DNA of 64,000 nucleotides from an uncultured Blastocatellia bacterium (GTDB lineage: Bacteria; Acidobacteriota; Blastocatellia; HR10). The stretch spans positions 1 through 64,000 of the forward strand of contig CALHAI010000007.1 of NCBI GenBank assembly GCA_937934295.1, given 5' to 3'. The translations under genes were made by a program, and so were the position numbers. The first letter of the stretch is position 1; each line of letters opens with the position of its first letter. A model generated the notes under the pieces. That model did not search any database. It worked only from the letters and a program-made list of their open reading frames with translations, and was not told the origin of the DNA. Positions 5,786 through 30,019 of this stretch are shown one piece after another.

Positions 5786-5824
5786 TTTCCAAAATCCTGG
5801 ATGAAATTTCCGAAAATTTGGAAA
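5786..5824 (+). promoter_or_regulatory. Tandem dyad, putative enhancer-binding site A
   Basis: Two copies of a dyad of form TTTCC-N8-GGAAA. Copy one starts at 5786 (TTTCC, AAAATCCT, GGATG) and copy two at 5807 (TTTCC, GAAAATTT, GGAAA), exactly 21 bp apart. They lie about 100 bp upstream of the -24 element at 5924. The same arrangement recurs at 11066-11104 and 17708-17746. Two sites on the same helix face upstream of a sigma-54 promoter are the usual layout for a bacterial enhancer-binding protein; the protein itself is not identified. Confidence 0.7.
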
Positions 5825-5922
5825 GTCAAGAGGCTCCGCGCTCCTTACTCTCGCGCCGAATGTGGATTCAAGATCAAAATATTCAAACTCTTACCCGCTC
5901 AACGGTCATCTCTTGGTCAAAA

Positions 5923-5938
5923 AGGCACGCAACTTGCT
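5923..5938 (+). promoter_or_regulatory. Sigma-54 type -24/-12 promoter A
   Basis: AGGCACG-CAAC-TTGCT, differing from the sigma-54 consensus TGGCACG-N4-TTGCW only at the first base. The invariant GG (5924-5925) and GC (5936-5937) are 12 bp apart as required. The predicted start near 5949 gives a leader of about 38 nt before the receptor ATG at 5987. Confidence 0.75.
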
Positions 5939-5986
5939 TACTTGAAATGTGGCAGCTCACAGTTAAGGTCCTAAGGAGGTGAGTCT

Positions 5987-8900
5987 ATGAACAAGAAAAA
6001 CTTGACGGTAATGGTCATGCTCGGGTTGCTGGCGTGGGCTTCAGTGGTCCCGGCTCAAGTACGGCCTGTCGGTCAGCTTACGGGGATCGTGCAAGACCCG
6101 GCGGGAGCCGTCGTGCCGGGCGCTGAAGTGAAAGCGCAAGATGAAGCGACCGGAGCCACACAAACACAGAAGACAGGGTTTGATGGAGGATTCACCTTTG
6201 TGAACCTCCAGGTGGGCACCTATAAGATCACAGTGAGCATGCCGGGATTTAAGACGACGGTCCTCTCAGGTCTCAAGGTAGACGCGGGGCGAACGACGAC
6301 TGTCGTCGTGACCTTACAGGTCGGTGAGATCGCTGAGACCGTAGAGGTTGTCGGGGGGCTCGAAATCTTAGAGCGGACGACGACGACTGTCGAGACGACC
6401 GTTCGGGGCGATGTGATTCGGCGACTCCCCTTGAACAATCGTGATACACTTGATTTCACGCTCCTGATGCCTGGAGCCCAGCAGGGCGGAACGGCGCGTC
6501 AGAGCACATTCCTCGGCCTGCCCAAGGGAGCCATCAACATCACGATGGATGGCGTGAACATTCAAGATAATCTGCTCAAAAGCGCTTTTGGCGGCGGCAT
6601 GTTCACGATTGTCCGGCCGCGCCTGGATGCCGTCGAAGAGGTGACGGTCAAGACGGCCGGCGTGGGCGCGGAGGCCGCCGGTGAAGGAGCCGTTCAGATC
6701 CAGTTCGTCACCCGCCGGGGGACGAATACCTTCCGGGGAACGCTCTTCTGGGACCATCGCAATGATGCGCTCAATGCCAACACCTGGTTTAACAACGTCC
6801 TCGGATTGCGGAAGCCCAGGAACCTGCTCAATGTCTTCGGCGGCAATGTGGGCGGACCGATCTGGAAGGACAAGATCTTCTTCTTCTTCAACTACGAAGA
6901 GTTCAGATTGCCGGAGTCGCGTCCGCGGGAGAACTTGATCCTGACGCAAGAAGCAGCGCAGGGCATCTTCCGATATCGTGGTACAGATGGGGTCGTGCGC
7001 GCAGTGAACCTACTACAAGTAGCGGGAGCAGCCGGCTTCCCGAGCACCATTGATCCCACTGTTGGGGATATGCTGCGACAGATCGATGCGGCGCGATCGC
7101 GCGGAGCGATCAGCCCGTTCGACCTCTTCCGCGAGCGCTATCGGTTTGAGGCTCCGAGCATGCAGGTGCGGCGCTTCCCCACTCTGCGCATGGATTACCA
7201 CATCACGGACAAGCTGCGGTGGCATGGCGTCTGGCATTACAACTTTTTCTCCTCCTTCCCGGACACGCTGAATTTGATGGACCCCACATTCCCCGGCCTG
7301 GGGAAGCCAGCCGGTCAGTACTCCAATCGCTTTTCTGTGACGACGGCCCTTCAGTATACGATCACACCGAGTGTGAATTATGAATTTCGCTTTGGGGTTC
7401 AGGGAGCGCCCGTGCAGTTCTTCCCCGAATCGGGACCGGAGATCTATCCGGCAGGCGTGCGCATCCTCTGGCCCCTTGGGTTGCAGAGCCTGCACGCGCG
7501 TCCGGGAGCCGCAGGAACCTCACGCGCGCTTCCATCGAGCCGAAACACCCCGGTCTACAATTTGCAGAACACTCTGGGGCTTGTGCGCGGAAAGCACTCG
7601 TGGGTCTTCGGGGGAACCTTCACGCGTGTAGGGTTCATTGACAATTCCTTTGGTGGAGCGGGAGTTCCCACAGTCTCCTTTGGTGTCGTTGGCGGAGACC
7701 CCGTCGCATCAGCGATTCAGGCGGGACTGCCCAATATCAGCACGACCGATCTGGGGAATGCGCTGGCGCTCTATGCCCTGCTGACAGGTCGCATCTCCGG
7801 CGTCTCCGGCACCCGCAATGTGGACGAGAGGACGAAGCAGTACGTCCATCTTGCCCCACTGGTACAGCGGGCGCGGCAGGACGAATTCGGCCTCTACTTT
7901 ACGGATTCCTGGCGCGTGACGCCGTCGTTGACGCTCAATTACGGCTTGCGCTGGGAGTTCCAGGGGGCAGCCGAGAACACCAACGACATCTACACGAGCC
8001 CGCGGGCGGAAGACCTCTGGGGCATCTCCGGCGTCGGTAATTTGTTCAAGCCGGGTGTCTTCCGTGGGATCGCCGATCCGCAAATTGACCAACGCTCACG
8101 CAAGATCTATAACCGCGACTTCATCAATCCGGCGCCGAGCTTCGGGCTGGCTTGGAATCCGCGATTCGAGAATCCCTTCTTCCGGTTCCTGTTTGGCGAT
8201 GAGCGAAAGTCGGTCTTCCGCGGGAGCTACTCGATCGCTTACACGCGCGAAGGGCTCGCTCACTTCACGACCTTCGCCGGAGGGAATCCCGGTCTGACGC
8301 AATCCATCTCGTTGACGGCGGGCGTGAACTTTCCAATTGGAGGATTGCTCTTGCGGGATCGGTTGCCGGCATTCAGCGAAGATCCGCCGAGCTTCAGTTT
8401 CCCCACACCGATGGCGCGCTTCACCTTCATCGGAGGTAATTTCTTCGCCTTTGATCCCAATATCCGCACGCCGTACATCCAAAGCTGGTCCTTCGGTTGG
8501 CAGCGCGAGCTGACGCGAGATATGGCCCTGGAGATTCGCTACGTGGGCAATCGAGGGACGAAGCTCTGGCGTGGGTTCAACCTCAATGAGGTTAACATCT
8601 TCGAGAACGGGTTCCTGCAGGAGTTCATTAATGCTCAGCGGAATCTGGCCATCAGCCGCGCTCAAGGACGAGGGGCGCGATTCGATAACCAGGGATTACC
8701 GGGTCAAGTGCCACTGCCGATCTTTGAGGCGGCCTTTGGCGCCCGTGGCCGTCAAGGGGCGCTCCCGCTGGCGTCTGGATTTGGAAGCGCCACCTTCATC
8801 ACGTGGTTGGATCAGGGTCAAGCGGGAGCCATGGCCAATGCGTTGGCCTCGACGGCGACCTTCCTCTGCCGGGCGGTGGGAAGTGCTCTGCCGCGCTGCG

Positions 8901-9817
8901 CGGCTCTGGGCTTCGATGCGCCCGGTCCGCTGCCGATCAATTTCTTCCAGGCCAATCCCTATGCGGCTAACCGCGGAGTGTGGCTGCTGACGAACGCCTC
9001 CTTCTCTACGTACAACGGGTTGCAACTCATCTTCCGACGTCGTCTGGCGCAAGGCTGGCAGATGACGGCTCATTATACCTTCTCGAAAGCCCTCACGGAC
9101 CTCTATGCCGATTCGGCCACCTCGAGCGTCGCCTTCAGCACGCTGCGCAATCGGCGGATGGACAAGGGGCCCTCGCCCTGGGATCTCAGGCATGTCTTCG
9201 TGAGCGACTTTCAGTATGAGCTGCCCTTTGGTCCCGGTCGGCGCTGGTCGTCCGGTTCCGGTGTCCTGAACCGGTTCATCGAGGGATGGCTTGTCGGCGG
9301 GATTGTTCGCATCCAATCTGGGCGCGTGTTCCGGCTCACCAGTGGGCGAGCGACGGTAAACCAGTTCGAGTCAGGAGTCATTCTCAAAGGAATCACCATC
9401 AAGGAGCTTCAAGAAAAGATCGGTGTGCGAAAGGTTCCCGGCGCCCGGGACATCTTCTTTGTGACTCCGGATCTGATCGGGCCCGATGGCCGCTCCAACC
9501 GGGCGATTCTGGACGTCCCGACGACGCCGGGTCAGTTCGGCTCGCTGGTTTTCCTACGCGGCCCTCGATTCGTTAAGCCCGATCTCACGCTCCAGAAGCG
9601 CACGCGGGTGACCGAACGGATCAACGTCGAGTTCTGGGCCGAGTTCTTCAATGCCTTCAACTTCCAGAACTTCTTGATTGGCGGCCCCAGTGCGGCGGGC
9701 ATCACCCACAGCATTGACAGTACGGCCTTCGGGCGCACGACCGAGTTCTTCAACGACCTCGGCAATCAGGATCCGGGTCCGCGCATGATCCAGTTCCGCA
9801 TTCGGGTGAACTTCTGA
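5987..9817 (+). CDS. TonB-dependent receptor (Oar-like), 1276 aa
   Basis: The largest receptor in the window. It has a cleavable signal peptide (residues 1 to about 23, ending VVPAQ), a carboxypeptidase-regulatory-like domain (about 28-108, starting GIVQDPAGAVVPGAEV), a plug domain with NNRDTLDFTLLMPG and the family signature RRGTNTFRG near residue 242, then a long beta-barrel ending IRVNF. It sits in the outer membrane and would import an unknown ligand with TonB/ExbBD energy. A textbook ribosome binding site (AAGGAGGTGAGTCT) precedes the ATG. Expression is probably sigma-54 dependent: a -24/-12 element at 5923-5938 and a paired dyad at 5786-5824 lie upstream. No SusD-like partner follows it. 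Confidence 0.92.
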   Translation: MNKKNLTVMVMLGLLAWASVVPAQVRPVGQLTGIVQDPAGAVVPGAEVKAQDEATGATQTQKTGFDGGFTFVNLQVGTYKITVSMPGFKTTVLSGLKVDAGRTTTVVVTLQVGEIAETVEVVGGLEILERTTTTVETTVRGDVIRRLPLNNRDTLDFTLLMPGAQQGGTARQSTFLGLPKGAINITMDGVNIQDNLLKSAFGGGMFTIVRPRLDAVEEVTVKTAGVGAEAAGEGAVQIQFVTRRGTNTFRGTLFWDHRNDALNANTWFNNVLGLRKPRNLLNVFGGNVGGPIWKDKIFFFFNYEEFRLPESRPRENLILTQEAAQGIFRYRGTDGVVRAVNLLQVAGAAGFPSTIDPTVGDMLRQIDAARSRGAISPFDLFRERYRFEAPSMQVRRFPTLRMDYHITDKLRWHGVWHYNFFSSFPDTLNLMDPTFPGLGKPAGQYSNRFSVTTALQYTITPSVNYEFRFGVQGAPVQFFPESGPEIYPAGVRILWPLGLQSLHARPGAAGTSRALPSSRNTPVYNLQNTLGLVRGKHSWVFGGTFTRVGFIDNSFGGAGVPTVSFGVVGGDPVASAIQAGLPNISTTDLGNALALYALLTGRISGVSGTRNVDERTKQYVHLAPLVQRARQDEFGLYFTDSWRVTPSLTLNYGLRWEFQGAAENTNDIYTSPRAEDLWGISGVGNLFKPGVFRGIADPQIDQRSRKIYNRDFINPAPSFGLAWNPRFENPFFRFLFGDERKSVFRGSYSIAYTREGLAHFTTFAGGNPGLTQSISLTAGVNFPIGGLLLRDRLPAFSEDPPSFSFPTPMARFTFIGGNFFAFDPNIRTPYIQSWSFGWQRELTRDMALEIRYVGNRGTKLWRGFNLNEVNIFENGFLQEFINAQRNLAISRAQGRGARFDNQGLPGQVPLPIFEAAFGARGRQGALPLASGFGSATFITWLDQGQAGAMANALASTATFLCRAVGSALPRCAALGFDAPGPLPINFFQANPYAANRGVWLLTNASFSTYNGLQLIFRRRLAQGWQMTAHYTFSKALTDLYADSATSSVAFSTLRNRRMDKGPSPWDLRHVFVSDFQYELPFGPGRRWSSGSGVLNRFIEGWLVGGIVRIQSGRVFRLTSGRATVNQFESGVILKGITIKELQEKIGVRKVPGARDIFFVTPDLIGPDGRSNRAILDVPTTPGQFGSLVFLRGPRFVKPDLTLQKRTRVTERINVEFWAEFFNAFNFQNFLIGGPSAAGITHSIDSTAFGRTTEFFNDLGNQDPGPRMIQFRIRVNF

Positions 9818-9826
9818 AGCATCGAA

Positions 9827-9850
9827 GGGGGGCCTTCCTTTAGGCCCCCC
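9827..9850 (+). terminator. Hairpin terminator after the receptor at 5987
   Basis: GGGGGGCC (9827-9834), an 8-nt loop, and GGCCCCCC (9843-9850) form a perfect 8-bp GC stem 9 nt after the receptor stop codon. The following T-tract is short, so efficiency is uncertain. The hairpin could also serve the convergent TPR gene. Confidence 0.6.
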
Positions 9851-9967
9851 TTGAATCCCAAACGGGATGGCGATCCCCTCATTCAAGAAGGGGAACTCAC
9901 CCCTATCGCCCGTATCAGATCAGCGCCCTCGAAGTTTTCTCTACCAACCAGCGCGCGATTCGCTCAC

Positions 9968-10963
9968 TTATTTTTGCGGATAGCCGAGCTGAACAAGTAG
10001 CGCGCGGATACGTTCAGCATTCGGCGAGCTTGGATCCATTTGCAGATACACGTTCCAAGCTTCGACCGCCTTCGGAATCCGGTCCGTCTGTGCGTAGAGC
10101 TTCCCCAGATACAAATAAGCCAACGCGCGCTCTAAGCCTTCGGCCTTCGTCCCACGGATAAGATGCGACTCGGCCTCCTGCACGTCATCGCTCTCCAAAA
10201 GCGCGATGCCCAGATAGACGTGAGCCGTCAACCAATTTGGGCTCTGTTCAAGAACATGTCGAAGAGGGGCGATGGCTTCCCGATAACGGCCGAGATGGTT
10301 CAAACAGATCCCGAGGTTCAAAAGGGGATAGAGCGCTTCCGGATCCTTTTCCAAGGCTTGGCGCAACAGTCGTTCGGCCTCCGCATACGCCTTCTTCCCC
10401 ATCTGCAGGACAGCCAATTCATTATAAGCGTCCACGAACTCAGCATCGCGTTTGAGGGCTCGCCGCAGTTTCTCCTCAGCGGAAGTGAGCTTCCCTCTCT
10501 CAATCTCCTCAAGCGCTTCTTGATAGAGCCGAGCTGCCACTTTGTCTGGAGCGCGTCTCAAACGCGAGATGGCAATAGTGCCCGGGCGCGGAGGAACTTC
10601 CTTCTTCTCCAGGGGGAGCAGATTCACCGGCAGATATCCCCGCGGCTGCGCATAGAAGGTCACCGTCGTCGTCGCATATCGGCGCCCATCTCCCTCGATC
10701 GTGAGCGTGTAGGCCCGAAATGGAACCAACCCCCGCAGGATGAACCGTCCCTGCCCATCAGTGAAGACGAACTCCACATCGCGCCGCGGATCATCGCTTT
10801 TCAGGGTCAGACGGACGACTTCTTGAAGCAGATCGCCCGTCGGGAGGAAAACCTGTCCCTGCATGCTCACCTGTGCCCACCCCGCACCGTGCAAAAGGAA
10901 AAAGCTCACTCCGAGGAGCACAAGACCCCGAAACCGAATTGCCGTGACCCGGCAGTTTTTCAT
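9968..10963 (-). CDS. Secreted TPR protein with carboxypeptidase-like N-terminal domain
   Basis: A 331-residue exported protein. A basic start and hydrophobic core (residues about 12-30, ending GAGWAQ) form a signal peptide. Residues about 31-120 are a carboxypeptidase-regulatory-like beta-sandwich of the kind found at the N-terminus of the neighbouring receptors. Residues about 140-325 hold four to five tetratricopeptide repeats (AEEKLRRALKRD, AERLLRQALEKDPEALYPLLN, YREAIAPLRHVLEQSPNW and others). TPRs bind other proteins, so a periplasmic adaptor for a receptor is plausible, but this is inference from context. It is transcribed away from the receptor at 11241 across a shared 277-bp region. 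The ATG has no clear ribosome binding site, so leaderless initiation is possible. Confidence 0.8.
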   Translation of the reverse strand: MKNCRVTAIRFRGLVLLGVSFFLLHGAGWAQVSMQGQVFLPTGDLLQEVVRLTLKSDDPRRDVEFVFTDGQGRFILRGLVPFRAYTLTIEGDGRRYATTTVTFYAQPRGYLPVNLLPLEKKEVPPRPGTIAISRLRRAPDKVAARLYQEALEEIERGKLTSAEEKLRRALKRDAEFVDAYNELAVLQMGKKAYAEAERLLRQALEKDPEALYPLLNLGICLNHLGRYREAIAPLRHVLEQSPNWLTAHVYLGIALLESDDVQEAESHLIRGTKAEGLERALAYLYLGKLYAQTDRIPKAVEAWNVYLQMDPSSPNAERIRALLVQLGYPQK

Positions 10964-11065
10964 GTAAGAGATCTTATGAGAGGGCTCAGGGCAAAAGCAA
11001 GGCGACTCCGCTCTCTTGCACCCAATCGGTCTCCAATTGCGCTCTGCAAGACCACGCCTGGTTCA

Positions 11066-11104
11066 TTTCCAGAAATTTGGAAGCTGCTTCCAAATTTTCG
11101 GAAG
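11066..11104 (+). promoter_or_regulatory. Tandem dyad, putative enhancer-binding site B
   Basis: Copy one starts at 11066 (TTTCC, AGAAATTT, GGAAG) and copy two at 11087 (CTTCC, AAATTTTC, GGAAG). Both halves of both dyads are intact, and the copies are again exactly 21 bp apart. The pair ends 76 bp before the GG of the -24 element at 11180. This is the best-conserved example of the element. Confidence 0.75.
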
Positions 11105-11178
11105 TCTTGGAGGGGACCCGAAATTGCCCCAAACCCGCAAGTGATTGATAGTCTGAGCACTGGCGGAGCAGAGTCGAG

Positions 11179-11194
11179 TGGCACGCAAATTGCA
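11179..11194 (+). promoter_or_regulatory. Sigma-54 type -24/-12 promoter B
   Basis: TGGCACG-CAAA-TTGCA is a perfect match to the sigma-54 consensus. GG is at 11180-11181 and GC at 11192-11193. The predicted start near 11205 gives a 36-nt leader to the ATG at 11241. Confidence 0.85.
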
Positions 11195-11240
11195 TATCTT
11201 TTTGAGCTATGCCTCACTATACCTAAGGAGGGAGACGACA

Positions 11241-14200
11241 ATGCGAGGACGAATATTGATGGCACTGCTTCTGGGGCCAGTGCTCCTTCTGAGCGCGTTT
11301 CCGCGTGTGAATGCTCAGACGGCAACGGGGACGATCACGGGGATCGTCACCGACGTTACAGGAGCCGTTGTCGCGGGAGCGACGGTGACGATTCGAGAGG
11401 TGAAGACGAACCTCTCGTACACGATCATGACGGATGCCACAGGGTTATACCGGCTCACGAATCTGCCGCGCGGTTTTTATGAGGTGAAGGTCGAGCAGAC
11501 GGGCTTTAAGACGGCCATTGTGAGCAACATCGAGCTGACTGTGAACGAGGTCAAGCGCGTGGACGTGACGCTGGAAGTCGGTGAGATTGCCGAGACGGTC
11601 ACCGTCACCGGCGAGCTTCCCTTGATCAACACCGAGGAAGGAAGGCTCTCGGGGCTCGTGGACAAGCGGCGCATTGTAGACTTACCGCTGGTGACGCGCG
11701 ATTTCACACAACTAGCCCTCTTGCAGCCGGGCGTCGTCGCCGGAGGAGTTGGAGCGAATACCGGGGGGTTCTCCATTGGGGGCGCGCGCAGCCGAGGGAC
11801 GAACTTCCTGGTGGACGGGATCGAGAACAATGATCCTGTCGTCGCGGGATTCACGCAGATCACGGTACCGCTTGACAGCGTGGAGGAATTCCGCTTGATC
11901 CGGAATACGTTTGGCGCCGAGTTCGGTCGGCTCTCCGGCGGGGTGCTGAGCATTGTCACGAAGGCGGGGACGAATGAGTTTCACGGGACGCTCTGGGAGT
12001 TCCACCGCAATCGTTCGTTGCGCGCGCGGAATTTCTTCGAGCGGGAGAAGCCGCCTTTCGTGCGCAATCAGTTCGGCTTCGACGTGAGCGGCCCCTTCAT
12101 TAAGGATACGCTCTTCGGCTACGGATCGTATGAGGTGACGACGCTCCGCTCTTCGACGACGCAACGGGCGCGCTTCTTCACGGCCGAGGCCGTTCGAGCG
12201 GCGACCGGACCGATCGCACGCGAGCTGTTGCAGAAGTATCCACGGCCGCCGGCCACGGAGAACCCGCGCTTTGTCACCGTCGGCGATGAGCGGATTCCTG
12301 TCTCGGCTGAGACGGTCATCACGCGGCCGAGCAGTTCCGATACCCACGCCTTCGTCATCCGCGTGGATCATCAAGGCTTCAACGGGCGGAACCGCATCAG
12401 CAGCCGCTACATCTTCAACCAAACGAACAATCTGGCTCCGCTGGCTTCGAACTCCTTGCTCACGGAGTTCTTCGGGCTGGATACGAGTTTCCGGAGCCAG
12501 AATTTCGGCCTGACCAACACGACGACGATTCGACCGAATATCATCAACGAGCTGAAGTTTGGCGTCACGCGGGATGCCTTTGATTGGCGGCCGCGCAATC
12601 CGCAGGTTCCGACAATCACGATCACGGGCGTGAACGGCTTCGGCGCCGATACGAACATGCCGCAGAATCGCTTCCCCGTGGTGTTCCAGATGGACGAGGG
12701 CCTCTCGATCATCAAAGGCGCGCACGCGGTGAAGACGGGCTTCCAGTACCGCTTCATTAAGCGCGTGCGCACGTTCAATGCGCTCTATCGCGGGGCTTAC
12801 AGCTTTGCGAACGAAGCCGCGTTTCTGGCCGATCAACCGCTCACTTACAGCGTGCGCATTGACCTGACGACGGGAGATCGCGGAGATGGCTATCGCATTT
12901 ATTCGCGGCATGAGCTGATGGGCTTTGTGCAAGATGATTGGAAGATGCGCCCAAACTTCACGCTCAACTTCGGCGTGCGGTATGAGAATTTCCGGCCGCC
13001 GAAGGAGTTGACCAATCGCATCGCGCAGGTGCTGATCCCTTCGGGAGCGACCATCTACGACATCTTTCACACCTTGGAGCCGCGGCCGACGAAGTTCTTC
13101 TATCATTCGGATGACAACAACTTCGCACCGCGTCTGGGCTTCGCCTGGAGTCCAAGGGGACCACGATGGTTGACCGGAGGCGAGGGTAAGATGGCCATCC
13201 GAGGCAGCTACGGCGTCTTCTACGAGCGGCTGTTCCAGAACATTGACGAGAACATCCAGTTCAATCCGCCGTTTGGAGCGACGCTGACCTTCGATACGCG
13301 GGCGCGTCAGACGTTCGTCTACTCGATCCCCTCGTGGGTGCCACCGGGATTGAAGGGTGCGGCTCCGCCACGCGGGACGGCCTTGAACCCGGTGTTCGAT
13401 CCGAATCTGCGCACCTCGTATATGCAGAGCTGGTTCTTCGGAATCCAGCGCGAGCTGCCCGGCGAGTTCTCCTTCGAGGTCAACTACCAGGGGACGAAGG
13501 GGACGAAACTCCCGCTCAATGTGAACATCAATCGGTTCGATGGCGATCTGCTCGATGGCACGCTCGATCGGGTCAACTCCTTCTGGGGCGCCGTGGGGCT
13601 GGCCGGCAATCGCGTCAATTCGATCTACCATGCTATGCAGGTCGAGGTGAAACGGCGCTTCAGCCGAGGCTTCACGATGCAGACGGCCTGGACCGTGTCG
13701 AAGATGATTGACGAGGACTCAGATTATTTCGCCTCGGACGGCATCGTCTCGGTCACGAGCATCAAGCGCGAGCGCGGGCTCTCGCGGTTCCACGCCCCGC
13801 AGCGGTTGGTCATCAACGCCATTTGGGACATGCCGTTCTTCCGCGGGCGCGGCGGCGCGCTCGAGCACATCCTGGGCGGGTGGACGATCTCGGGGATCGC
13901 GACCTTCCAAAGTGGGCGTCCGTTCAACGTCTTCTCCAGCGCCCCTTATCCGCGCGGCGATTTCAACGCCGATGGGACGAATAACGATCGTCCCAATATC
14001 AAGACGGACAAGAAGGGAGCGATCCTCAAACGGAGCCCGGCAGATGGGATCCTCGATCCTAATGCCTTTGACACGAATTTCCGAGGCATTGGGAATCTCG
14101 GGCGGAACGTCTTCCTCGGCCCAGGCTTCGCGAATCTGGACTTCGCCGTGTACAAGAACTTCCGCCTGACAGCGCTCGGCGAACAGGGGCGACTGCAATT

Positions 14201-14339
14201 CCGCGCCGAGATATTCAACCTACCCAATCATGTGAACTTCGCGCTGCCGACGGGCAATCTCGCCAGCACGCTCTTCGGCAAGTCGAACGAAGCGGCGGCG
14301 CCGCGCACGTTCCAACTCGCGTTGAAGCTCTACTTCTGA
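11241..14339 (+). CDS. TonB-dependent receptor (Oar-like), 1032 aa
   Basis: The open frame extends upstream to 11178, but that would place the start inside the sigma-54 promoter. The ATG at 11241 is preceded by AAGGAGGGAGACGACA and begins a proper signal peptide (to about residue 26, VNAQ). A carboxypeptidase-regulatory-like domain follows (about 32-112, GIVTDVTGAVVAGATV), then a plug region with LPLVTRDFTQLALLQPG and the signature KAGTNEFHGT near residue 240, and a beta-barrel ending LALKLYF. It is an outer membrane importer energised by TonB, ligand unknown. It carries the clearest enhancer-like dyad pair and sigma-54 promoter of the set. A 12-bp perfect hairpin follows the stop codon. Confidence 0.92.
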   Translation: MRGRILMALLLGPVLLLSAFPRVNAQTATGTITGIVTDVTGAVVAGATVTIREVKTNLSYTIMTDATGLYRLTNLPRGFYEVKVEQTGFKTAIVSNIELTVNEVKRVDVTLEVGEIAETVTVTGELPLINTEEGRLSGLVDKRRIVDLPLVTRDFTQLALLQPGVVAGGVGANTGGFSIGGARSRGTNFLVDGIENNDPVVAGFTQITVPLDSVEEFRLIRNTFGAEFGRLSGGVLSIVTKAGTNEFHGTLWEFHRNRSLRARNFFEREKPPFVRNQFGFDVSGPFIKDTLFGYGSYEVTTLRSSTTQRARFFTAEAVRAATGPIARELLQKYPRPPATENPRFVTVGDERIPVSAETVITRPSSSDTHAFVIRVDHQGFNGRNRISSRYIFNQTNNLAPLASNSLLTEFFGLDTSFRSQNFGLTNTTTIRPNIINELKFGVTRDAFDWRPRNPQVPTITITGVNGFGADTNMPQNRFPVVFQMDEGLSIIKGAHAVKTGFQYRFIKRVRTFNALYRGAYSFANEAAFLADQPLTYSVRIDLTTGDRGDGYRIYSRHELMGFVQDDWKMRPNFTLNFGVRYENFRPPKELTNRIAQVLIPSGATIYDIFHTLEPRPTKFFYHSDDNNFAPRLGFAWSPRGPRWLTGGEGKMAIRGSYGVFYERLFQNIDENIQFNPPFGATLTFDTRARQTFVYSIPSWVPPGLKGAAPPRGTALNPVFDPNLRTSYMQSWFFGIQRELPGEFSFEVNYQGTKGTKLPLNVNINRFDGDLLDGTLDRVNSFWGAVGLAGNRVNSIYHAMQVEVKRRFSRGFTMQTAWTVSKMIDEDSDYFASDGIVSVTSIKRERGLSRFHAPQRLVINAIWDMPFFRGRGGALEHILGGWTISGIATFQSGRPFNVFSSAPYPRGDFNADGTNNDRPNIKTDKKGAILKRSPADGILDPNAFDTNFRGIGNLGRNVFLGPGFANLDFAVYKNFRLTALGEQGRLQFRAEIFNLPNHVNFALPTGNLASTLFGKSNEAAAPRTFQLALKLYF

Positions 14340-14346
14340 AGCGCGT

Positions 14347-14374
14347 CCCCTGAGAGGCGTGAGCCTCTCAGGGG
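14347..14374 (+). terminator. Hairpin terminator after the receptor at 11241
   Basis: CCCCTGAGAGGC (14347-14358), loop GTGA, GCCTCTCAGGGG (14363-14374): a perfect 12-bp stem starting 7 nt after the stop codon. A second, smaller hairpin (AAGGGG/CCCCTT) followed by TCTTT lies at about 14397-14416 and may act with it. Confidence 0.75.
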
Positions 14375-14446
14375 TTCGCCCGAAGGGGTGGGCCTGAAGG
14401 GGCCTTCCCCTTCTTTATAAAGAGTCGCTGCTTTTAGTGAACCCGT

Positions 14447-14529
14447 ATTCCGAAAAGCTCGGGAAGGAACTCTCCCGAAACTTGGAAGTTTCAACCGTGA
14501 AAGATGGGGAGCGTTGAACCGCTGATGCT
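14447..14529 (+). promoter_or_regulatory. Degenerate dyad and -24/-12-like element D
   Basis: A diverged version of the element found at the other three receptor genes of this cluster. One dyad, TCTCC-CGAAACTT-GGAAG, lies at 14471-14488. A looser one with TTCC and GGAA ten bases apart lies at 14448-14465, so the 21-bp register is lost. A TTGAACC-gctg-ATGCT sequence at 14514-14529 sits exactly where the promoter is expected (about 39-nt leader) and keeps the -12 GC but has TG instead of GG at -24. It is either a weak or a decayed sigma-54 promoter. Confidence 0.35.
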
Positions 14530-14578
14530 TATCGGGTAAACTCCCACATGACATGATTGAAAACGGAGGAGGTGCCTT

Positions 14579-17500
14579 ATGGACAGAAACCGCCTTGGGC
14601 TTCTACTGTCCTGTGGCTTAATCTGTGTGCTCCTGGCAAGCCAGGGAGTAGGCGCACAGACGCAGGCGACCGGGACAATCGAAGGCGTCGTCCGAGACGA
14701 GCGCGGCGCCGTGATCGCCGGGGCGAAAGTGAGCGTGCGCCATTTGGGGACAAATGCGACACGCGAGCTCACGACGGATGTCTCCGGTCGTTACCGCGCT
14801 GTCTTCCTGCCGCCGGGCTCCTATGAGGTGACGGCCGAAATGCCGGGCTTCGCCACAACGACCCAGTCAGGGATCACGGTGCTCGTTGGTGGAACGGCGA
14901 CCGTAGACCTCACGTTGAAGGTCGCGCCGGTGGCTGAGACCGTCACGATCACGGCAGAAGCGCCAATTGTCGAGCCCGAGCGCACGGAGTTCACTTCAGT
15001 GGTCAGCGAATCGGCCGTTCATAATCTCCCGATCAACGGGCGGCGATGGGAGAACTTCGTGCTGCTCACGCCAGGGGTGAATCCCGACGGCACGTTCGGA
15101 CTCGTGAGCTACCGCGGGATCTCCGGGCTTTACAATAACAATACGGTCGACGGAGCCGACAACAATCAAGCATTCTTCTCCGAAGCGCGGGGGCGCACGC
15201 GCGTCGTCTACACGACGAGCCTCTCCTCGATCAAGGAATTTCAGGTTGGCTTGAGCAACTTCTCTGCCGAATTCGGACGCGCGGCTGGCGGAACCGTCAA
15301 CGCGGTGACGAAATCGGGGACGAACGAGTTTCATGGTGAAGCGTTCTATTTCCTGCGCGACGATGCCATCATGGCACGTGAGCCGTTTCAACCCTTAGAG
15401 CCAGAGGAACGGCGACAGCAGTTCGGATTCTCATTGGGCGGCCCCTTCATCAAGGATAAGCTGTTTTACTTCGGGACCTACGATCAGCAAGTGCGGAACT
15501 TCCCGTATTTCGTGACCCCCTCGAGCCCAACCTTCTTGACCTCTCCATGCACGGCTCCCGGATGCGCGGCGACGATCCAATTCTTCCAATCGTTGCAGCG
15601 TTTCGTCCCACGAAAAGCACACAATAACGTCGCCTTTTACAAAGTGGACTGGGTGCTCTCGCCGCGGCACACGTTCACCGGACAATACAACTGGCATCGG
15701 TGGCGCTCGCCCAACGGGATTCGTACGGCGCCCATTCAATTCGCGGCCGAATCGGACAACGGGTTCGATGGAGTGAAGACGGACTTCCTGCTCTTCCGCC
15801 TCTCTTCGGCGCTCAGCCACACGCTCGCCCATGAGGTCCGTTTCCAGTATGGGCGCGATTTCGAGTTCCAGCGACCTAACGCGCCCGGGCCGAGCACGAC
15901 CGTCACCGGAGGGATCAGCTTCGGTATGCCGAGCTTCCTCCCGCGACCGGCTTTCCCCGACGAGAAGCGCTTCCAATGGGTGGACAACATCTCCCTCATT
16001 CGCGGACGGCATAACGTGAAGGCTGGGCTCGACATCAACTACGTGCGCGATTTGCAGATCAACCTCTTCCAGGGGGGCGGCGTCTACAGCTACGATGGGT
16101 TGAACCAAATCGCGCAGGATTGTCCGAAGGGAGCCATCGGGTGTGTCCCCTTAGACGATGGACCGCGCACGCGACGACATTATCGCTTCTACGTTCAAGC
16201 CTTCGATCTCCGGGGATTCACGGGCGAGCAGGCTGGACGCGTCTTCTTCACCACGACGGATTACAATTTCTACATCCAGGACCGGTATCGCGCGCATCCG
16301 CATCTGACGCTCGATTTCGGCCTTCGATACGAATTCCAGAAACTGCCGCAGCCGGAGATCGGGAACCCGGCCTTCCCTCAAACCCAGCGATTCAATCAAG
16401 ATACGAACAACTTCGGACCACGCGTGGGGATCGCTTGGGATATCGGCGGCCATCACACAACGGTCCTGCGTATGGGCTATGGGCTTTACTATGGGCGAAC
16501 GAGCAACAGTGCCATCTCCAATGCCCTGACGAATAATGGGAAGATCCTCGCTTCGTACTTCTTCACGCCGACAACGCCGGGAGCGCCGCAGTATCCGGAC
16601 GTCTTCAGCGCGCCGCCAGCCGGACCGGGCTCGGCCCCAGACATTCAGTTCTTCTCGTCGGACTACGTGCGGCCGCTTGTGCATATGGCGGAACTGTCGC
16701 TCGAACGCGAGGTCGTTCGCGATCTGAGCGTCTCGGCCTCGTACCTCTTCAGTCGAGGCCAGCGCTTACCTTCATTCCGCGATATCAACCTGAACCCGCC
16801 GACGGCGCAAGTGATCTTCATCCTTCCCGATGGAACGGTGACGCCCCCATTCCCCTTCTTCACGGGACCGCGCCCGATAGCTGGTGTCGGACGGATCATC
16901 ATCAGCGAGAGCGTGGTGAACTCGAAGTACAATGCCTTCGTGCTCCAGGTGACGCAACGAATGCGACGCGGCGTGCAATTCAACGCGAACCTCACGATCG
17001 CTAAGGCCATTGATGACGGACAAACCTCACAGACGTTCTTCGGTGGGAATCAGCTCTTCAACACCTTCGACCGGCGCAGCGAGCGCGCGCTCTCGACCTT
17101 CGACATCCGCAAGCGCTTTGTCACGAGCTTCGTCTGGGAGCCGAGACTACAAGGCCTCACCGATCCAACAGCTCGCGCTGTGCTCAACGGCTGGCGGTTC
17201 AGCGGGATCATCACGGCCTCTGACGGTGTGCCCGTCACCGGCATTATTTCCGGAAGCCTCTCGGCCGCAACGGGAGCGACCGTGACGGCCAGCCCCAATG
17301 GCAGCGGCGGCTCGACGCGCGTCCCCTTCCTCGCCCGCAATAGCTTCCGTGGGACGGGATTCGCCAATGTGGATTTCCGCATCGCGCGCGACATCAAGGT
17401 GACCGAAGGCACGCGTTTCGAGATCATCTGGGAAGCGTTCAATCTCTTCAACCGCGTCAACTTCACGAGCTTCTCGACCATCCAGTACCGCATCGCCTCT

Positions 17501-17632
17501 TCGAGCGTAGATCCAACCGGCGTCCGCCAAGTGCGGCTCGCGAGCGACCCCGGCTTCCTTCAGCCGCGTGCGGCAAGCACGACACTGTGGGGGCCACGAG
17601 AATTCCAACTCGCGATCAAGTTCCATTGGTGA
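14579..17632 (+). CDS. TonB-dependent receptor (Oar-like), 1017 aa
   Basis: Signal peptide to about residue 26 (GVGAQ), then a carboxypeptidase-regulatory-like domain (about 32-112, GVVRDERGAVIAGAKV), a plug domain (LPINGRRWENFVLLTPG) and the signature KSGTNEFHGE near residue 244, and a beta-barrel ending LAIKFHW with a terminal aromatic residue. It is an outer membrane TonB-dependent transporter, ligand unknown. The ATG follows GGAGGAGGTGCCTT. Upstream sequence holds only degenerate copies of the dyads and the -24/-12 promoter seen at its three neighbours, so its expression may differ from theirs. Confidence 0.92.
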   Translation: MDRNRLGLLLSCGLICVLLASQGVGAQTQATGTIEGVVRDERGAVIAGAKVSVRHLGTNATRELTTDVSGRYRAVFLPPGSYEVTAEMPGFATTTQSGITVLVGGTATVDLTLKVAPVAETVTITAEAPIVEPERTEFTSVVSESAVHNLPINGRRWENFVLLTPGVNPDGTFGLVSYRGISGLYNNNTVDGADNNQAFFSEARGRTRVVYTTSLSSIKEFQVGLSNFSAEFGRAAGGTVNAVTKSGTNEFHGEAFYFLRDDAIMAREPFQPLEPEERRQQFGFSLGGPFIKDKLFYFGTYDQQVRNFPYFVTPSSPTFLTSPCTAPGCAATIQFFQSLQRFVPRKAHNNVAFYKVDWVLSPRHTFTGQYNWHRWRSPNGIRTAPIQFAAESDNGFDGVKTDFLLFRLSSALSHTLAHEVRFQYGRDFEFQRPNAPGPSTTVTGGISFGMPSFLPRPAFPDEKRFQWVDNISLIRGRHNVKAGLDINYVRDLQINLFQGGGVYSYDGLNQIAQDCPKGAIGCVPLDDGPRTRRHYRFYVQAFDLRGFTGEQAGRVFFTTTDYNFYIQDRYRAHPHLTLDFGLRYEFQKLPQPEIGNPAFPQTQRFNQDTNNFGPRVGIAWDIGGHHTTVLRMGYGLYYGRTSNSAISNALTNNGKILASYFFTPTTPGAPQYPDVFSAPPAGPGSAPDIQFFSSDYVRPLVHMAELSLEREVVRDLSVSASYLFSRGQRLPSFRDINLNPPTAQVIFILPDGTVTPPFPFFTGPRPIAGVGRIIISESVVNSKYNAFVLQVTQRMRRGVQFNANLTIAKAIDDGQTSQTFFGGNQLFNTFDRRSERALSTFDIRKRFVTSFVWEPRLQGLTDPTARAVLNGWRFSGIITASDGVPVTGIISGSLSAATGATVTASPNGSGGSTRVPFLARNSFRGTGFANVDFRIARDIKVTEGTRFEIIWEAFNLFNRVNFTSFSTIQYRIASSSVDPTGVRQVRLASDPGFLQPRAASTTLWGPREFQLAIKFHW

Positions 17633-17655
17633 ACGCTAAACCCGGATACGGGAAT

Positions 17656-17676
17656 GGGGGACGATCCTCGTCCCCC
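17656..17676 (+). terminator. Hairpin terminator after the receptor at 14579
   Basis: GGGGGACGA (17656-17664), loop TCC, TCGTCCCCC (17668-17676) followed by TT. A perfect 9-bp stem 23 nt after the stop codon and just upstream of the dyads of the next receptor. Confidence 0.7.
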
Positions 17677-17707
17677 TTCCTCAGCTCCGGCCTTTTTGAT
17701 TCTCGAG

Positions 17708-17746
17708 CTTCCAAAATTTCGGATAAAATTTCCAAAAATTTGAAAG
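17708..17746 (+). promoter_or_regulatory. Tandem dyad, putative enhancer-binding site C
   Basis: Copy one starts at 17708 (CTTCC, AAAATTTC, GGATA) and copy two at 17729 (TTTCC, AAAAATTT, GAAAG), 21 bp apart as at sites A and B. The left half-sites are intact and the right half-sites slightly diverged. The pair ends 63 bp before the GG of the -24 element at 17809. Confidence 0.65.
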
Positions 17747-17807: not shown

Positions 17808-17823
17808 TGGCACGAGATTTGCT
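17808..17823 (+). promoter_or_regulatory. Sigma-54 type -24/-12 promoter C
   Basis: TGGCACG-AGAT-TTGCT is a full match to the sigma-54 consensus, with GG at 17809-17810 and GC at 17821-17822. The predicted start near 17834 gives a 42-nt leader to the ATG at 17876. Confidence 0.85.
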
Positions 17824-17875: not shown

Positions 17876-20800
17876 ATGAAGCCATATCGCAAAAGGAGTT
17901 GGAGGATGTGGATCTCGACCTGTCTGATCACGGGGGCCATCTTTCTGCCTTACTTGACGACTCCGATTACGGCCCAGACGACGACGGGAGGTCTCCGTGG
18001 CGTCGTCATGGACGTGACCGGAGCCATCGTGCCCGGAGCCACGGTCGTGGCGAAGAACGCCGCGACGGGCGTAGAGCATCGGACCACGGCCACGAGCGAG
18101 GGGATCTACACGATCCCACGAATCCCGCCCGGAAAATATGACATACGGGTAGAAGCTCAAGGGTTCAAGGTGGCCGAAGTCACGGGTGTAGAAGTCGGCG
18201 TGGGGAAAGATACGGTCGTGGACTTTCGTCTGGAGCCGGGAGCGATCACCGAGGTCGTGACGGTGACCGGTGGCGGCGAAGTGCTCCTTGAGCGGGACAC
18301 GGCGCAGATCTCGGCGACGATTCAATCGCGAAAGATTCAAGACCTCCCGATCAATGTTGCGGGTGGCGGTTTGGATCGTGTGGTTTTGTTGCTGCCGGGT
18401 GTCCGAACGGGCTTCGGCAATGTCAATGCCAACGGGGTGACGCTCTCGGTCAACGGCAACCGCGCCCGGTCCAACAACTTCACTATAGACGGCGTGGACA
18501 ATAATGATCTTTCCATCGGTGGTCCCAACTACTTCGTGCAGAATCGCGACCTGATCCAGGAGTATCAGGTGATCACCAACAACTTCTCTGCTGAATACGG
18601 GCGCAATCAGGGAGCCATCGTCAACATCGTCAGCAAGTCGGGGACGAACGAGTTCCACGGGACGGTAGCGTGGTACCACCGGGACCGGAAGCTTTGGGAC
18701 TCGCTGACAAATCTGGAGCGCCGTTCTGGGCAGAAGGAGCCGCTGCCAGATCTGGTCAACGTGTTCGACTACACGATCGGCGGCCCGATTGTGAAGAATA
18801 AGGTCTTCTTCTTCCACGCCGGTCACTTCATCCGCAACCCTCAGTTTGCTGATCTGCGGACGACGTCATTGGCGCCGACGCCCGAAGGCATCCAGATGTT
18901 GAAGAATGCCTTCCCGAATAATCCGGCCATTCAGTATTACGCCGACTTTTCGGCCTTCGCGCTCCCGATTGGCAATCCCACGATTCGCCCAGATGTGCCG
19001 GCTTCCACGATCACGATCGGGAACCTGAAGGTCCCGGTCGCCGCCGTGCGTCGAGCCGTGCCTCTGTCGGGGCGATTGGACGAGATCAACGTGCGCAGTG
19101 ATGTGCATCCGAGTGATCGGGATCGCATCTGGGGACGCTACTTCATCCAAGACCGGCCAGGAAAAGACTTCCTGGTGGACGTGCGCGGGTGGACCGGCGA
19201 CATCCCCTTCCGAACCCAACAGGCCGGCGGCGGATGGACGCGGAACATCTCCATGCGATCGGTCAATGAATTCCGGTTCAACTTCTCGCGGCTATTTGTG
19301 ATCTTCGGGGGTGGGGGAAGTGGTGGCAAGGGGAACATTCCACACCCGGATAAGATTGATAAAGCGCTGACATTTCTCAACCCCATCTTCCGGGCGGATA
19401 ACGGGGCACCGCTTCTGAGCGTCGGCCCCGCCACCAACCTGCCCCAGGGGCGCACGGTCGAATCTTTCCAGTTCAACGACAATTTCACGCTCACGGTTGG
19501 ACGCCACCAATTGAAGATGGGGATTGATATTCGTCGTTTGAGAAATGCCGTGCCGTTCTTGCCGAACGTCAACGGAGCATTTACCTTCTCGACAGCCCAA
19601 CGATTGGCCGATAACAATCCCAACTTCCTGACGGTGGCGCTCGGTCCGGCGACGCTCAAGTACACGGAGACCGATCAATTCTATTTCTTCCAGGACGACT
19701 GGCGCATTCGCCCCAATCTCACGCTCAATCTCGGCCTCCGGTACGAGAACACGGGTCAGCCGATGAACCTCTTGAACGAGATCACCGCGGCGCGCGAGCG
19801 GGATCCGCAGCGAGCGTTCTGGCGACAGGACCTACCGCTTGAAGCTCGCATTGTGCCACGCGTTCCCACGGACAACAATAACTTCGCGCCGCGCTTTGGG
19901 TTCGTCTACACGCCGCGTTGGGGCAAGTGGCTCTTTGGCGAAGACCGGACGGTCATTCGAGGCGGCTATGGGATCGCCTACGATCCGGCGTTCTACAACC
20001 TGATGCTCAATATCTCGACCTCGTCGCCGCTCGTCTTCCTGACGAGCGTGGCGAACTTCCCCGTTCCCGATCCTGTGCCGACGGGAGACAAGGTGCGCGA
20101 TGCCGCTGTGCGAGCTGGGGTCATTCGCTTCAATACCTTCGATCCTCGGTTCTTCGCCCGTACGGTTCCGGCCTTGGACTTCCGCCAGCCCTATGTGCAA
20201 CAGTGGTCGCTCGGAATCCAGCGCGAACTCGTCCGCGAGAATGTGCTTGAAATCCGGTATGTCGGGAACCATCAAGTTGGCCAATTTCAAACGGTCAACT
20301 TCAACCCATTCATCGGGAATCTGGTCCGAGGATTTGGCCCCGTCCGGTATGTGGACCCGGCGGACAATCAGGTGAAGACGCTCACCTTCCCCGGATTCCC
20401 GCAGATTCTGCCACGAGGCGTCGCGCCGCTCACCTGCACGGACAATCCGGCGACGGCGGATAACGAGGCCCTTTGCGATGGGCGGTTGTTCCCGTCTGGC
20501 GTCGCCCGAGTGCGCATTAATGGCGTTTCGGCCAGCCACAACGGGCTGCAACTGCGATTGGACGGCCGAGTCCGGCAGCAGTGGACCTACACGGTCAGCT
20601 ACACCTGGAGCCACACGATTGACAATTCGAGCGAGGTCTTCAATTTCGATACCGGGAATTCCGTCACCGTCGCCCAGAATCCGCTCAATCTCACGCGCGC
20701 CGAGCGTGGGAACTCCGGTTTCGATGCGCGGCATTTGTTCGCGGCCTCCTGGATCTGGGACCTCCCGTTCCGGCGCGATCAGCGCGGCTTTCTCGGGCGG

Positions 20801-21433
20801 CTCATTGGTGGTTGGCAGTTTAACGGGATCGTGCGCATCCAAAGTGGACAGTGGTTCACGCCGGTTCAGCAGCAGCTCATCAACCCGTATGAAGATCAGC
20901 CCTTCGTTCAGTCCTTCATCGGGCGTTCCCACCTGCGCCCGTTCAACGGCAATCCGGCCGCTCCGATTGATCGGGTCGGCATCACGGACGTTGACGCCTG
21001 CGTCTTCTATCGGTTGGCGGTGTGCGGCACAAGCGCAGGAGTCCCCATTCTTCGATCCAGTCCCACGGGCTTCTGGCTCCTGAACGATCTCAACCGAGGG
21101 GTCTTCACGCCGGTGACACCGAACGACGTGCGGGTGATCGTCAACGGTCCGGGAGCAGCTCAGCGCTTCGGGACACCTTTTGGGACGCTCGGACGGAACA
21201 CTTTCAAAGGAGATCGCTTTGAGGGTGTTGACCTGAGCATCTTCAAGAGCACGCGCGTCACCGAGCGCGTCTCGATCCAGTACCGGTTGAACCTCTTCAA
21301 TGCCTTCAACCACCCCTTCTTTGGAATCCCCAATAGCATCTTTGTTGAGCAAGCGGGCCGCACCTACTTCAACTTCCAGGAGAATAACGGTGGTCGCCGG
21401 ACGATTGAGATGGCCCTGAAGATCATCTTCTGA
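17876..21433 (+). CDS. TonB-dependent receptor (Oar-like), 1185 aa
   Basis: Signal peptide with an unusually long basic start (cleavage about residue 33, TITAQ), a carboxypeptidase-regulatory-like domain (about 40-118, GVVMDVTGAIVPGATV), a plug domain with LPGVRTGFGNVNANGV and FTIDGVDNNDL, the signature KSGTNEFHGT near residue 253, and a beta-barrel ending MALKIIF. It would import an unknown ligand across the outer membrane with TonB energy. The ATG is preceded by GAGGAGGGACACGTT. Its promoter region has a consensus -24/-12 element and a paired dyad, and a strong intrinsic terminator follows the gene. Confidence 0.92.
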   Translation: MKPYRKRSWRMWISTCLITGAIFLPYLTTPITAQTTTGGLRGVVMDVTGAIVPGATVVAKNAATGVEHRTTATSEGIYTIPRIPPGKYDIRVEAQGFKVAEVTGVEVGVGKDTVVDFRLEPGAITEVVTVTGGGEVLLERDTAQISATIQSRKIQDLPINVAGGGLDRVVLLLPGVRTGFGNVNANGVTLSVNGNRARSNNFTIDGVDNNDLSIGGPNYFVQNRDLIQEYQVITNNFSAEYGRNQGAIVNIVSKSGTNEFHGTVAWYHRDRKLWDSLTNLERRSGQKEPLPDLVNVFDYTIGGPIVKNKVFFFHAGHFIRNPQFADLRTTSLAPTPEGIQMLKNAFPNNPAIQYYADFSAFALPIGNPTIRPDVPASTITIGNLKVPVAAVRRAVPLSGRLDEINVRSDVHPSDRDRIWGRYFIQDRPGKDFLVDVRGWTGDIPFRTQQAGGGWTRNISMRSVNEFRFNFSRLFVIFGGGGSGGKGNIPHPDKIDKALTFLNPIFRADNGAPLLSVGPATNLPQGRTVESFQFNDNFTLTVGRHQLKMGIDIRRLRNAVPFLPNVNGAFTFSTAQRLADNNPNFLTVALGPATLKYTETDQFYFFQDDWRIRPNLTLNLGLRYENTGQPMNLLNEITAARERDPQRAFWRQDLPLEARIVPRVPTDNNNFAPRFGFVYTPRWGKWLFGEDRTVIRGGYGIAYDPAFYNLMLNISTSSPLVFLTSVANFPVPDPVPTGDKVRDAAVRAGVIRFNTFDPRFFARTVPALDFRQPYVQQWSLGIQRELVRENVLEIRYVGNHQVGQFQTVNFNPFIGNLVRGFGPVRYVDPADNQVKTLTFPGFPQILPRGVAPLTCTDNPATADNEALCDGRLFPSGVARVRINGVSASHNGLQLRLDGRVRQQWTYTVSYTWSHTIDNSSEVFNFDTGNSVTVAQNPLNLTRAERGNSGFDARHLFAASWIWDLPFRRDQRGFLGRLIGGWQFNGIVRIQSGQWFTPVQQQLINPYEDQPFVQSFIGRSHLRPFNGNPAAPIDRVGITDVDACVFYRLAVCGTSAGVPILRSSPTGFWLLNDLNRGVFTPVTPNDVRVIVNGPGAAQRFGTPFGTLGRNTFKGDRFEGVDLSIFKSTRVTERVSIQYRLNLFNAFNHPFFGIPNSIFVEQAGRTYFNFQENNGGRRTIEMALKIIF

Positions 21434-21531: not shown

Positions 21532-23079
21532 TCAGAAGGCGGCGATGGCTTCGCGGGTCGCCTGCATGAGCTGTTCCGCGGCAATACGGGAGAAGTCCAC
21601 CCAAGGCGGCGGATAAATCCCCACGACCAAGACCATAAGGGCAGCCATGACCAACGCCGTCCTCATGAGCGGGGTCAGCGCGAGCGGCGTTGGCTCCAGG
21701 ATGGGCCCCATGAACATCGCCTTGATGAACCGCGCGTAGTAGTAAAGCGAAACGGCCGTATTGATCACGGCGATGACGGCCAGTGCGGCGAGCCACCGAT
21801 TCCCCGTCTCAATAAGCCCAGCGAAGAGGAAGTACTTCCCCAGGAAGCCGGCCGTCGGCGGAATTCCCGCCAGGCTGATCAGGAAGATCGTCATCAAAAC
21901 AGCCATCAAGGGATTCGTATGAATGAGCCCATTAAAATCCTCCACGCGATCTCCCGCAATGCCCCCGCGCCGTAGGGCGATGATCGCTCCCCAGGCGCCG
22001 AGATTCATGAAGACGTAGACGAAGAGGTAAATGACGAGACCGATATAACCGGTTCGATTCCCCGCCACCAGACCCAGCAGCAGAAATCCCGCGTGCGAGA
22101 TCGAGGAATAGGCCATGAGCCGTTTGGCGTTCGCCTGCGTGATGGCGGCCAGATTCCCCCACGTCATCGTCAGAGCCGAGACAGCGCCGATCAACGCCAT
22201 CCATCCGAGGTTCTCCAGCGACGTCGTCCCTCGCAGGGAGGGTAACCCGTAAACGAAGATACGGGCGAAGATGGCGAACGCCGCCGCTTTCGACCCGACG
22301 GACATGAAAGCCGTCACCGAACTGGGCGCCCCCTCATAGGCGTCCGGTGCCCACATGTGGAAGGGCACGGCGGCGACTTTGAAGAAGAGGCCCGCGACGA
22401 TGAAGACCATGGCCAGGATCGCTAAAAAGCCCGGCGTCTGCTCGGCCGCGAGCGCCGATGCGATCTTCTGCAAATTCGTCTCTCCGGTGACGCCATAGAG
22501 CAGTGAGACCCCATAGAGAAAGATGCCCGAGGAGAAGATGCCGAGCAGGAAATACTTCAAGGCCCCTTCGTTCGACTTCCGATCCCCCTTGAAGTACGCG
22601 ACGAGCACGTAGACGGAAATGGCCGCCAGCTCGAAACTGATGAAGATGGCCAGCAGATCCATGCCCGAGGCCATGAACATCATGCCGACGGTCGCAAAGA
22701 GGATGAGGGCGTAATACTCACCACGCTGCTCGCGCTCGATGTCGAGGAATTTGATCGAGAGCGCGATGGCGAGCGCCGCCGTCACCAAGAAGATCACTTT
22801 GAAGACGATGGCGAAGGAATCCAGAACGTACATCTCATAGAAGCCGAGGGCTTCATGCCCGCGTAAATTGAGGGAGGTTTGCGCGAGCGTGGCGGCACTC
22901 GCTCCGATCCCACCCAACGCCAGATAAGCGGCCCATCGGCGCTCGGTCGCCCGCCATCCGACATCGAGAATGAGCAGCAAACAGGCGAAGGCCGCCAGCA
23001 TGATCTCCGGCATCAAAAACATCACCGCCTGCTCGACCAACCATCGCCAATCGAGTCCTTGAAAGAGCAGTGCCCTCAT
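21532..23079 (-). CDS. nuoN: NADH-quinone oxidoreductase subunit N
   Basis: A 515-residue polytopic membrane subunit of complex I, one of the three antiporter-like proton-pumping subunits. The translation from the ATG at 23077-23079 (MRALLFQGLDW) has about 14 hydrophobic helices and the family stretches FISFELAAISVYVLVAY and KYFLLGIFSSGI. It also has the lysine-bearing helix region KVAAVPFHMWAPDAYEGAP found in NuoL/M/N proteins. The frame is open upstream, but AAGGAGGAGGA sits right before this ATG and an earlier start would run into nuoM. It is the last gene of the nuo cluster, 10 nt after nuoM. Confidence 0.93.
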   Translation of the reverse strand: MRALLFQGLDWRWLVEQAVMFLMPEIMLAAFACLLLILDVGWRATERRWAAYLALGGIGASAATLAQTSLNLRGHEALGFYEMYVLDSFAIVFKVIFLVTAALAIALSIKFLDIEREQRGEYYALILFATVGMMFMASGMDLLAIFISFELAAISVYVLVAYFKGDRKSNEGALKYFLLGIFSSGIFLYGVSLLYGVTGETNLQKIASALAAEQTPGFLAILAMVFIVAGLFFKVAAVPFHMWAPDAYEGAPSSVTAFMSVGSKAAAFAIFARIFVYGLPSLRGTTSLENLGWMALIGAVSALTMTWGNLAAITQANAKRLMAYSSISHAGFLLLGLVAGNRTGYIGLVIYLFVYVFMNLGAWGAIIALRRGGIAGDRVEDFNGLIHTNPLMAVLMTIFLISLAGIPPTAGFLGKYFLFAGLIETGNRWLAALAVIAVINTAVSLYYYARFIKAMFMGPILEPTPLALTPLMRTALVMAALMVLVVGIYPPPWVDFSRIAAEQLMQATREAIAAF

Positions 23080-23089
23080 TCCTCCTCCT

Positions 23090-24847: not shown

Positions 24848-24856
24848 ACCCTCCCC

Positions 24857-27046: not shown

Positions 27047-27244
27047 GGCACGGCCCTCTCCTCCTGGAATCGCGAAATCACCCGCCATGAATTCCCGCCT
27101 TCCTCAAGGCTTCGGCCAACGCCGCCTCCAATCGCCGTTCCCGCTCCGGCGCGCGCGTATGCCCCTTTGTCCCCATCAAGACGAGGCCACCCCACAACCC
27201 CCGCATCGGAAATCTCACCTGATGCGCTGCGCGGCATTCCCACA
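27047..27244 (-). other. Gap inside the nuo cluster, no supported gene
   Basis: The other nuo genes in this run are separated by 0-24 nt, but nuoK and nuoL are 198 nt apart. A 69-codon open frame on the minus strand (27034-27243) overlaps the nuoL start, is rich in Gly/Ala/Arg and resembles no subunit. No clear hairpin or promoter was found. Confidence 0.5.
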
Positions 27245-27640: not shown

Positions 27641-27663
27641 CTTCCCCTCCCCTGCCACGGCCT

Positions 27664-28215: not shown

Positions 28216-28228
28216 GTCCGCCCCCTCC

Positions 28229-28726: not shown

Positions 28727-28744
28727 GAAGGCCCCTCCATAGGC

Positions 28745-30010: not shown

Positions 30011-30019
30011 GTCCCCCTC

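Follow-up and report, generated by a model that had tools for sequence, protein, structure and literature searches.

The window, that is, the whole stretch of 64,000 nucleotides that was analysed, contains four receptor genes of the same family on the forward strand: receptor A (5987-9817, 1276 aa), receptor B (11241-14339, 1032 aa), a fourth receptor (14579-17632, 1017 aa) and receptor C (17876-21433, 1185 aa). Receptors A, B, and C showed the Pfam domains CarboxypepD_reg and OMP_b-brl_4, with Plug just under the cut-off in receptor B, and the fourth receptor was also placed in this family by Pfam. The cluster is adjoined by genes for complex I (NADH dehydrogenase) subunits on the reverse strand (21532-31285), for which no link to the regulon described below was seen.

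Receptors A, B, and C are each preceded by a pair of dyads, to which no strand was assigned. Pair A (5787-5823) consists of the dyads 5787-5802 and 5808-5823, pair B (11067-11103) of 11067-11082 and 11088-11103, and pair C (17709-17745) of 17709-17724 and 17730-17745. Three such pairs with a 21-bp period had been proposed in the original prediction, and all six dyads were recovered in place, with a start-to-start distance of exactly 21 bp in each pair. The dyad had been described there as an 18-bp TTTCC-N8-GGAAA element. This form was matched perfectly only at 5807 and with one or two mismatches at the other five dyads, so the 16-mer TTCC-N8-GGAA is the better unit. The spacer had been described there as AT-rich (AAATTT-like) and different between sites. 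The central 8 bp were RAAAWTTY-like in 64 dyads (32 pairs) of the family, and these eight constrained bases are therefore part of the motif and not a free spacer. The operator consensus is a 16-bp palindrome, TTCC-RAAAWTTY-GGAA, paired with an offset of 21 bp.

A sigma-54 -24/-12 element follows each pair on the forward strand. These elements are AGGCACGCAACTTGCT at 5923-5938, TGGCACGCAAATTGCA at 11179-11194, and TGGCACGAGATTTGCT at 17808-17823, the latter two being perfect matches. Their distances from the respective pair starts are 136 bp (A), 112 bp (B), and 99 bp (C). The fourth receptor has no intact operator and no pair upstream. The interval 14340-14580 holds only a decayed dyad, the operator remnant CTCCCGAAACTTGGAA (14472-14487, no strand assigned), and the -24/-12 element is gone. 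Both the pair and the promoter are retained before the orthologs of this gene in two relatives (G002 and G004). The fourth receptor is a recent loss from the regulon.

Distribution of the operator in the genome and in relatives

The genome searched comprised 2.79 Mb in 25 contigs and was 94.5% complete. With up to two mismatches, TTCCNAAATTTNGGAA occurred at 13 sites in the whole genome and the reversed control at none, which indicated that the dyads are not a chance occurrence. The pair pattern with up to two mismatches was found at eight places, namely seven true pairs, a count that includes weaker partner dyads, and a GC-rich match at C24:25532. Besides the three pairs of the window on contig C7 (5787/5808, 11067/11088, and 17709/17730), the true pairs were located on C2 (70191/70212 and 79052/79073), C8 (46901/46922), and C3 (113279/113300). 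All seven were intergenic, and the start-to-start distance was exactly 21 bp in every one. The lone dyads C5:164827 and C6:73876 lay inside ORFs and had no partner. Six of the seven pairs stood before receptors with CarboxypepD_reg and OMP_b-brl_4 and the seventh (C2:70191) before an operon of a histidine kinase and an NtrC-type regulator, so pairs are not as common in coding regions as before receptors. When the spacing was left free in a single-dyad search of six genomes (neighbours less than 200 bp apart), a distance of 21 bp was observed 30 times, and 22 and 28 bp once each.

PF13620 and PF25183 scored above the cut-off in all six target receptors, and the TonB-dependent plug PF07715 came no closer than marginally below it, in two of the six. 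With both domain types over the cut-off, the targets are outer-membrane receptors with a CarboxypepD_reg domain (Oar-like, putatively TonB-dependent). The genome contains about 34 OMP_b-brl_4 genes, as counted from the match list, and six of them lie behind a pair. Upstream of the remaining genes, pairs were absent and good -24/-12 sites were rare. The regulon thus covers a defined receptor subset, and about 28 of the roughly 34 receptors stand outside it.

Each of the seven pairs in the genome was followed by a -24/-12 element, and RpoN is encoded in the genome (TIGR02395, 405 bits vs a cut-off of 277). The promoter count was extended to 41 pairs from eight genomes, comprising the own genome, five f1 relatives, and two genomes of family f2; these pairs are not independent because many are orthologs. 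An element with GG and GC 10 bp apart lay behind all 41 pairs, with no more than two mismatches in 39, and a comparable match was present in one of 238 shifted control windows. The distance from the pair start to the -24 element was 99-137 bp in 40 pairs and 179 bp in one, inside the range of roughly 80-200 bp expected of a conserved upstream activating sequence (UAS), and 40 of the 41 sat before a receptor or the kinase. After ortholog groups were collapsed, the distances clustered near 101, 112, and 135 bp. A helical phasing test gave a best period of 11-11.5 bp, with p = 0.02 at 10.5 bp under a crude null model, and the importance of helical phase between pair and promoter is therefore only suggestive.

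The operator was also conserved in the orthologous promoters of relatives. When a single mismatch was allowed, four congeners and a further genome of the family each had 3-8 matches to the pair pattern and none to the control, and the promoter spacing was nearly always kept. Pair A was retained in G001 and G003, pair B in G002-G005, pair C in G001, G002, G004, and G005, and the pair of the kinase operon throughout the five genomes of the genus. The pair-promoter distances within the genus were 136-137 bp for receptor A, 112-114 bp for receptor B, 99-101 bp for receptor C, and 115 bp for the kinase, and the receptor A ortholog in G005 had a distance of 101 bp. The sole clear 22-bp pair in the family (G001:C13:159193 and 159215), apparently before the receptor B ortholog, represents a natural one-base insertion between the dyads. 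The f2 genomes G006 and G008 contained one pair each, before a receptor. The pair pattern was rare and near the control level in the remainder of the class, and a stringent pair was found in one of 297 sampled genomes of the phylum, a sample without the other f1 genomes. As far as its sequence pattern goes, the operator in its sharp form is limited to the order of the window, mostly to its family.

The candidate regulator and its operon

The C2 operon behind the seventh pair encodes a histidine kinase (L030:6317-9250 in G000) and an NtrC-type response regulator (L030:9333-10748, C2:73333). The kinase consists of one TM helix, a PDZ-like domain, about seven TM helices, GAF, PAS, HisKA, and HATPase. 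The regulator has a receiver, an AAA+ domain with GAFTGA, and a Fis-type HTH, with the Pfam matches over the cut-off, and by this domain content it is an NtrC-type response regulator (group I bEBP). The receiver D55, GESGTGKE, and GAFTGA were invariant in 13 bEBP orthologs. The identity of the bEBP was 61-70% across the class outside the order and 51-56% in other classes of the phylum, and the HTH pattern QS-AA-LL--N-TTLN-K was nearly invariant across the class.

The original prediction had looked toward a bEBP gene that occurs together with the operator. The genome encodes 11 full bEBPs, and only the one at C2:73333 has a pair in its operon, which makes it a strong candidate. Since the operator precedes the operon of the bEBP itself, the system is probably autoregulated, and this autoregulation would be positive because a sigma-54 promoter lies before the kinase/bEBP operon. 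Autoregulation is frequent among two-component bEBPs. Downstream of the sigma-54 kinase promoter, the regulator is separated from the next receptor by genes for a metallophosphoesterase and a long AAA_23 ATPase (SbcD/SbcC-like; L030:10812-15017), which may be co-transcribed with the regulator.

In genus g11 of family f5, a receptor of the same family directly followed the bEBP ortholog in all ten genomes read, as identified by Pfam domains in four genomes and by tblastn in the others. The gap between the two genes contained a -24/-12 site at the same cut-off in seven of the ten, and a near site with TTGTC or TTGAC at -12 was recognized by eye in the other three. The best degenerate dyad pair of this interval had a gap of 20 in eight genomes and 21 in two, with p <= 0.01 in seven of the ten against Markov shuffles with equal gap choice. 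The top dyad of the 12-13-kb locus fell in the kinase promoter in G011, G013, and G019, and only the G019 pair clearly exceeded the background count. The dyads of G011 and G013 were rejected as strong support, since such scores recur by chance. No operator was found in the kinase promoter in family f2. In most families of the class, the genes for the kinase and the bEBP do not lie side by side.

The proposed regulon and rival explanations

In the original prediction the dyads were read as a shared operator through which an unrecognised bEBP controls the receptors. The pairs, promoters, targets, and candidate bEBP all speak for this reading, and at the sequence level they support a function of the operator as the paired UAS of a bEBP. 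We consider it very probable that the paired dyads are the UAS of a sigma-54 regulon whose activator is most likely the C2 kinase/NtrC-type regulator system. Besides the kinase/regulator operon, the regulon would comprise the six large outer-membrane receptors. Once phosphorylated, the regulator would bind cooperatively, as dimers, to both 16-bp palindromes, which lie on the same face of the DNA at a distance of two helical turns, and an AAA+ ring would assemble there. Through DNA looping, the sigma-54 holoenzyme would then be remodelled at the -24/-12 promoter 99-137 bp downstream. Binding, phosphorylation, and looping are the steps expected from the protein family.

The operator, the promoter, the targets, and one candidate regulator can thus all be named, so that the signal controlling a defined subset of the roughly 34 receptor paralogs is now testable. 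In related genomes, regulon members can be predicted from the operator. Furthermore, the strictly paired sites, with their natural 20-, 21-, and 22-bp variants, are a system for studying cooperative bEBP binding.

Another bEBP could bind the same UAS, with the kinase/regulator operon as one more target in a cascade. The ten further full bEBPs of the genome would allow this, as would the nearly family-specific range of the sharp operator compared with the class-wide range of the candidate bEBP. However, no other bEBP gene adjoins a pair, and the neighbour of the candidate bEBP in f5 is a sigma-54 receptor gene with dyads. A pair before the operon of the regulator also fits the autoregulation common for two-component bEBPs, and we regard the cascade as unlikely. 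Sigma-54 promoters require an ATP-driven activator bound upstream, which argues against a repressor or an ordinary activator that would use the dyads on the same promoters with no bEBP enhancer. Although palindromic operators of similar size are frequent in other regulator families, the dyads lie 99-137 bp upstream in nearly all cases and do not overlap the promoter, and no further conserved paired site was found between the two. An operator of this type is very improbable.

The pairs might also have been left behind by a recent duplication, or be a small mobile repeat carried with the receptor paralogs, three of the six regulon receptors being clustered together. Such an origin is hardly credible, in line with the original prediction, which had argued against a simple recent duplication. 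In the comparisons made, identity among the six receptors was only about 30-40%, the DNA separating the dyads from the promoter differs between sites, the kinase gene behind one of the pairs is not homologous to the receptor genes, and other species have kept orthologous pairs.

The sensor domain, known systems, and related dyads

The PDZ-like domain of the kinase comprises about 85 residues between the first TM helix and the group of about seven, and the number of TM helices suggests that it is periplasmic. A PDZ_6 fragment scored 21.2 bits vs a Pfam cut-off of 27. The AlphaFold model of the domain had a pLDDT of about 75-89, and its fold matched the PDZ of a C-terminal protease (TM-score 0.73 on the target) and the peptide-activated DegS with weak E-values of 5-6e-3. 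Similar to DegS/RseP, a system that senses envelope stress from outer-membrane proteins, the PDZ-like domain follows one TM helix and its predicted structure resembles the DegS PDZ, whereas the output is a histidine kinase and sigma-54 here and proteolysis of an anti-sigma factor there. The regulon receptors terminate in F or W. These ends are compatible with peptide sensing and give no evidence for it, because receptors outside the regulon share them. One conceivable route is that C-terminal F/W peptides of unassembled receptors would be bound by the kinase domain. The domain might then read the receptor state and adjust receptor synthesis via sigma-54, as a phosphorelay counterpart of DegS/sigma-E dedicated to uptake receptors and ancestral to one class within the Acidobacteriota; we put this forward as a long shot.

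The two-component bEBP regulon with tandem upstream sites is a known kind, and this regulon appears to be a new one. The nearest described design is PrsK/PrsR with RpoN, in which sigma-54 promoters with a predicted enhancer precede PEP-CTERM genes (TIGR02916/TIGR02915; PMC9850573). A kinase with a Fis-type bEBP regulator and dispersed genes for envelope or exported proteins with an upstream enhancer are common to both, while the targets are receptors here and PEP-CTERM proteins there. Membership in these families was rejected by the scores of 379.5 vs 502.6 bits for TIGR02915 and 103.6 vs 300 bits for TIGR02916. NtrB/NtrC shares the receiver-AAA+-Fis HTH regulator, the sigma-54 promoters, and the paired upstream sites, but the targets here are receptors. 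The operator differs from the NtrC consensus known to us, and the regulator scored 434.3 bits vs the cut-off of 558.6 for NtrC (NR(I)). AtoS/AtoC and ZraS/ZraR were the best-scoring named families for both proteins, with scores far under the cut-offs for AtoC (467.9 vs 714 bits) and AtoS (302.9 vs 646 bits) and below that for ZraR (384.4 vs 760 bits), and their sensor part and targets differ. A literature search, with most subscription papers outside its scope, returned no sigma-54 control of such receptors, nor any regulon described for the large families of receptors in these bacteria. Within the literature searched, the operator and the regulon appear undescribed.

TTCC pairs were also seen in the distant genomes G013, G016, G029, G030, G033, G049, and G055. 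No receptor with a suitably positioned promoter accompanied them, and they look like chance matches or parts of other systems. Two 21-bp pairs in G016 (L055 and L190) have the core TGAAATCA in place of RAAAWTTY, and 205 bp downstream of one of them a perfect -24/-12 site precedes a gene. In addition, the g11 genomes G047 and G044 carry three tandem TTCC-N8-GGAA dyads with a 21-bp period (L064 and L065, about 1480-1560). The core of these triple dyads is different and less AT-rich, no receptor lies behind them, and they are possibly the operator of another regulator.
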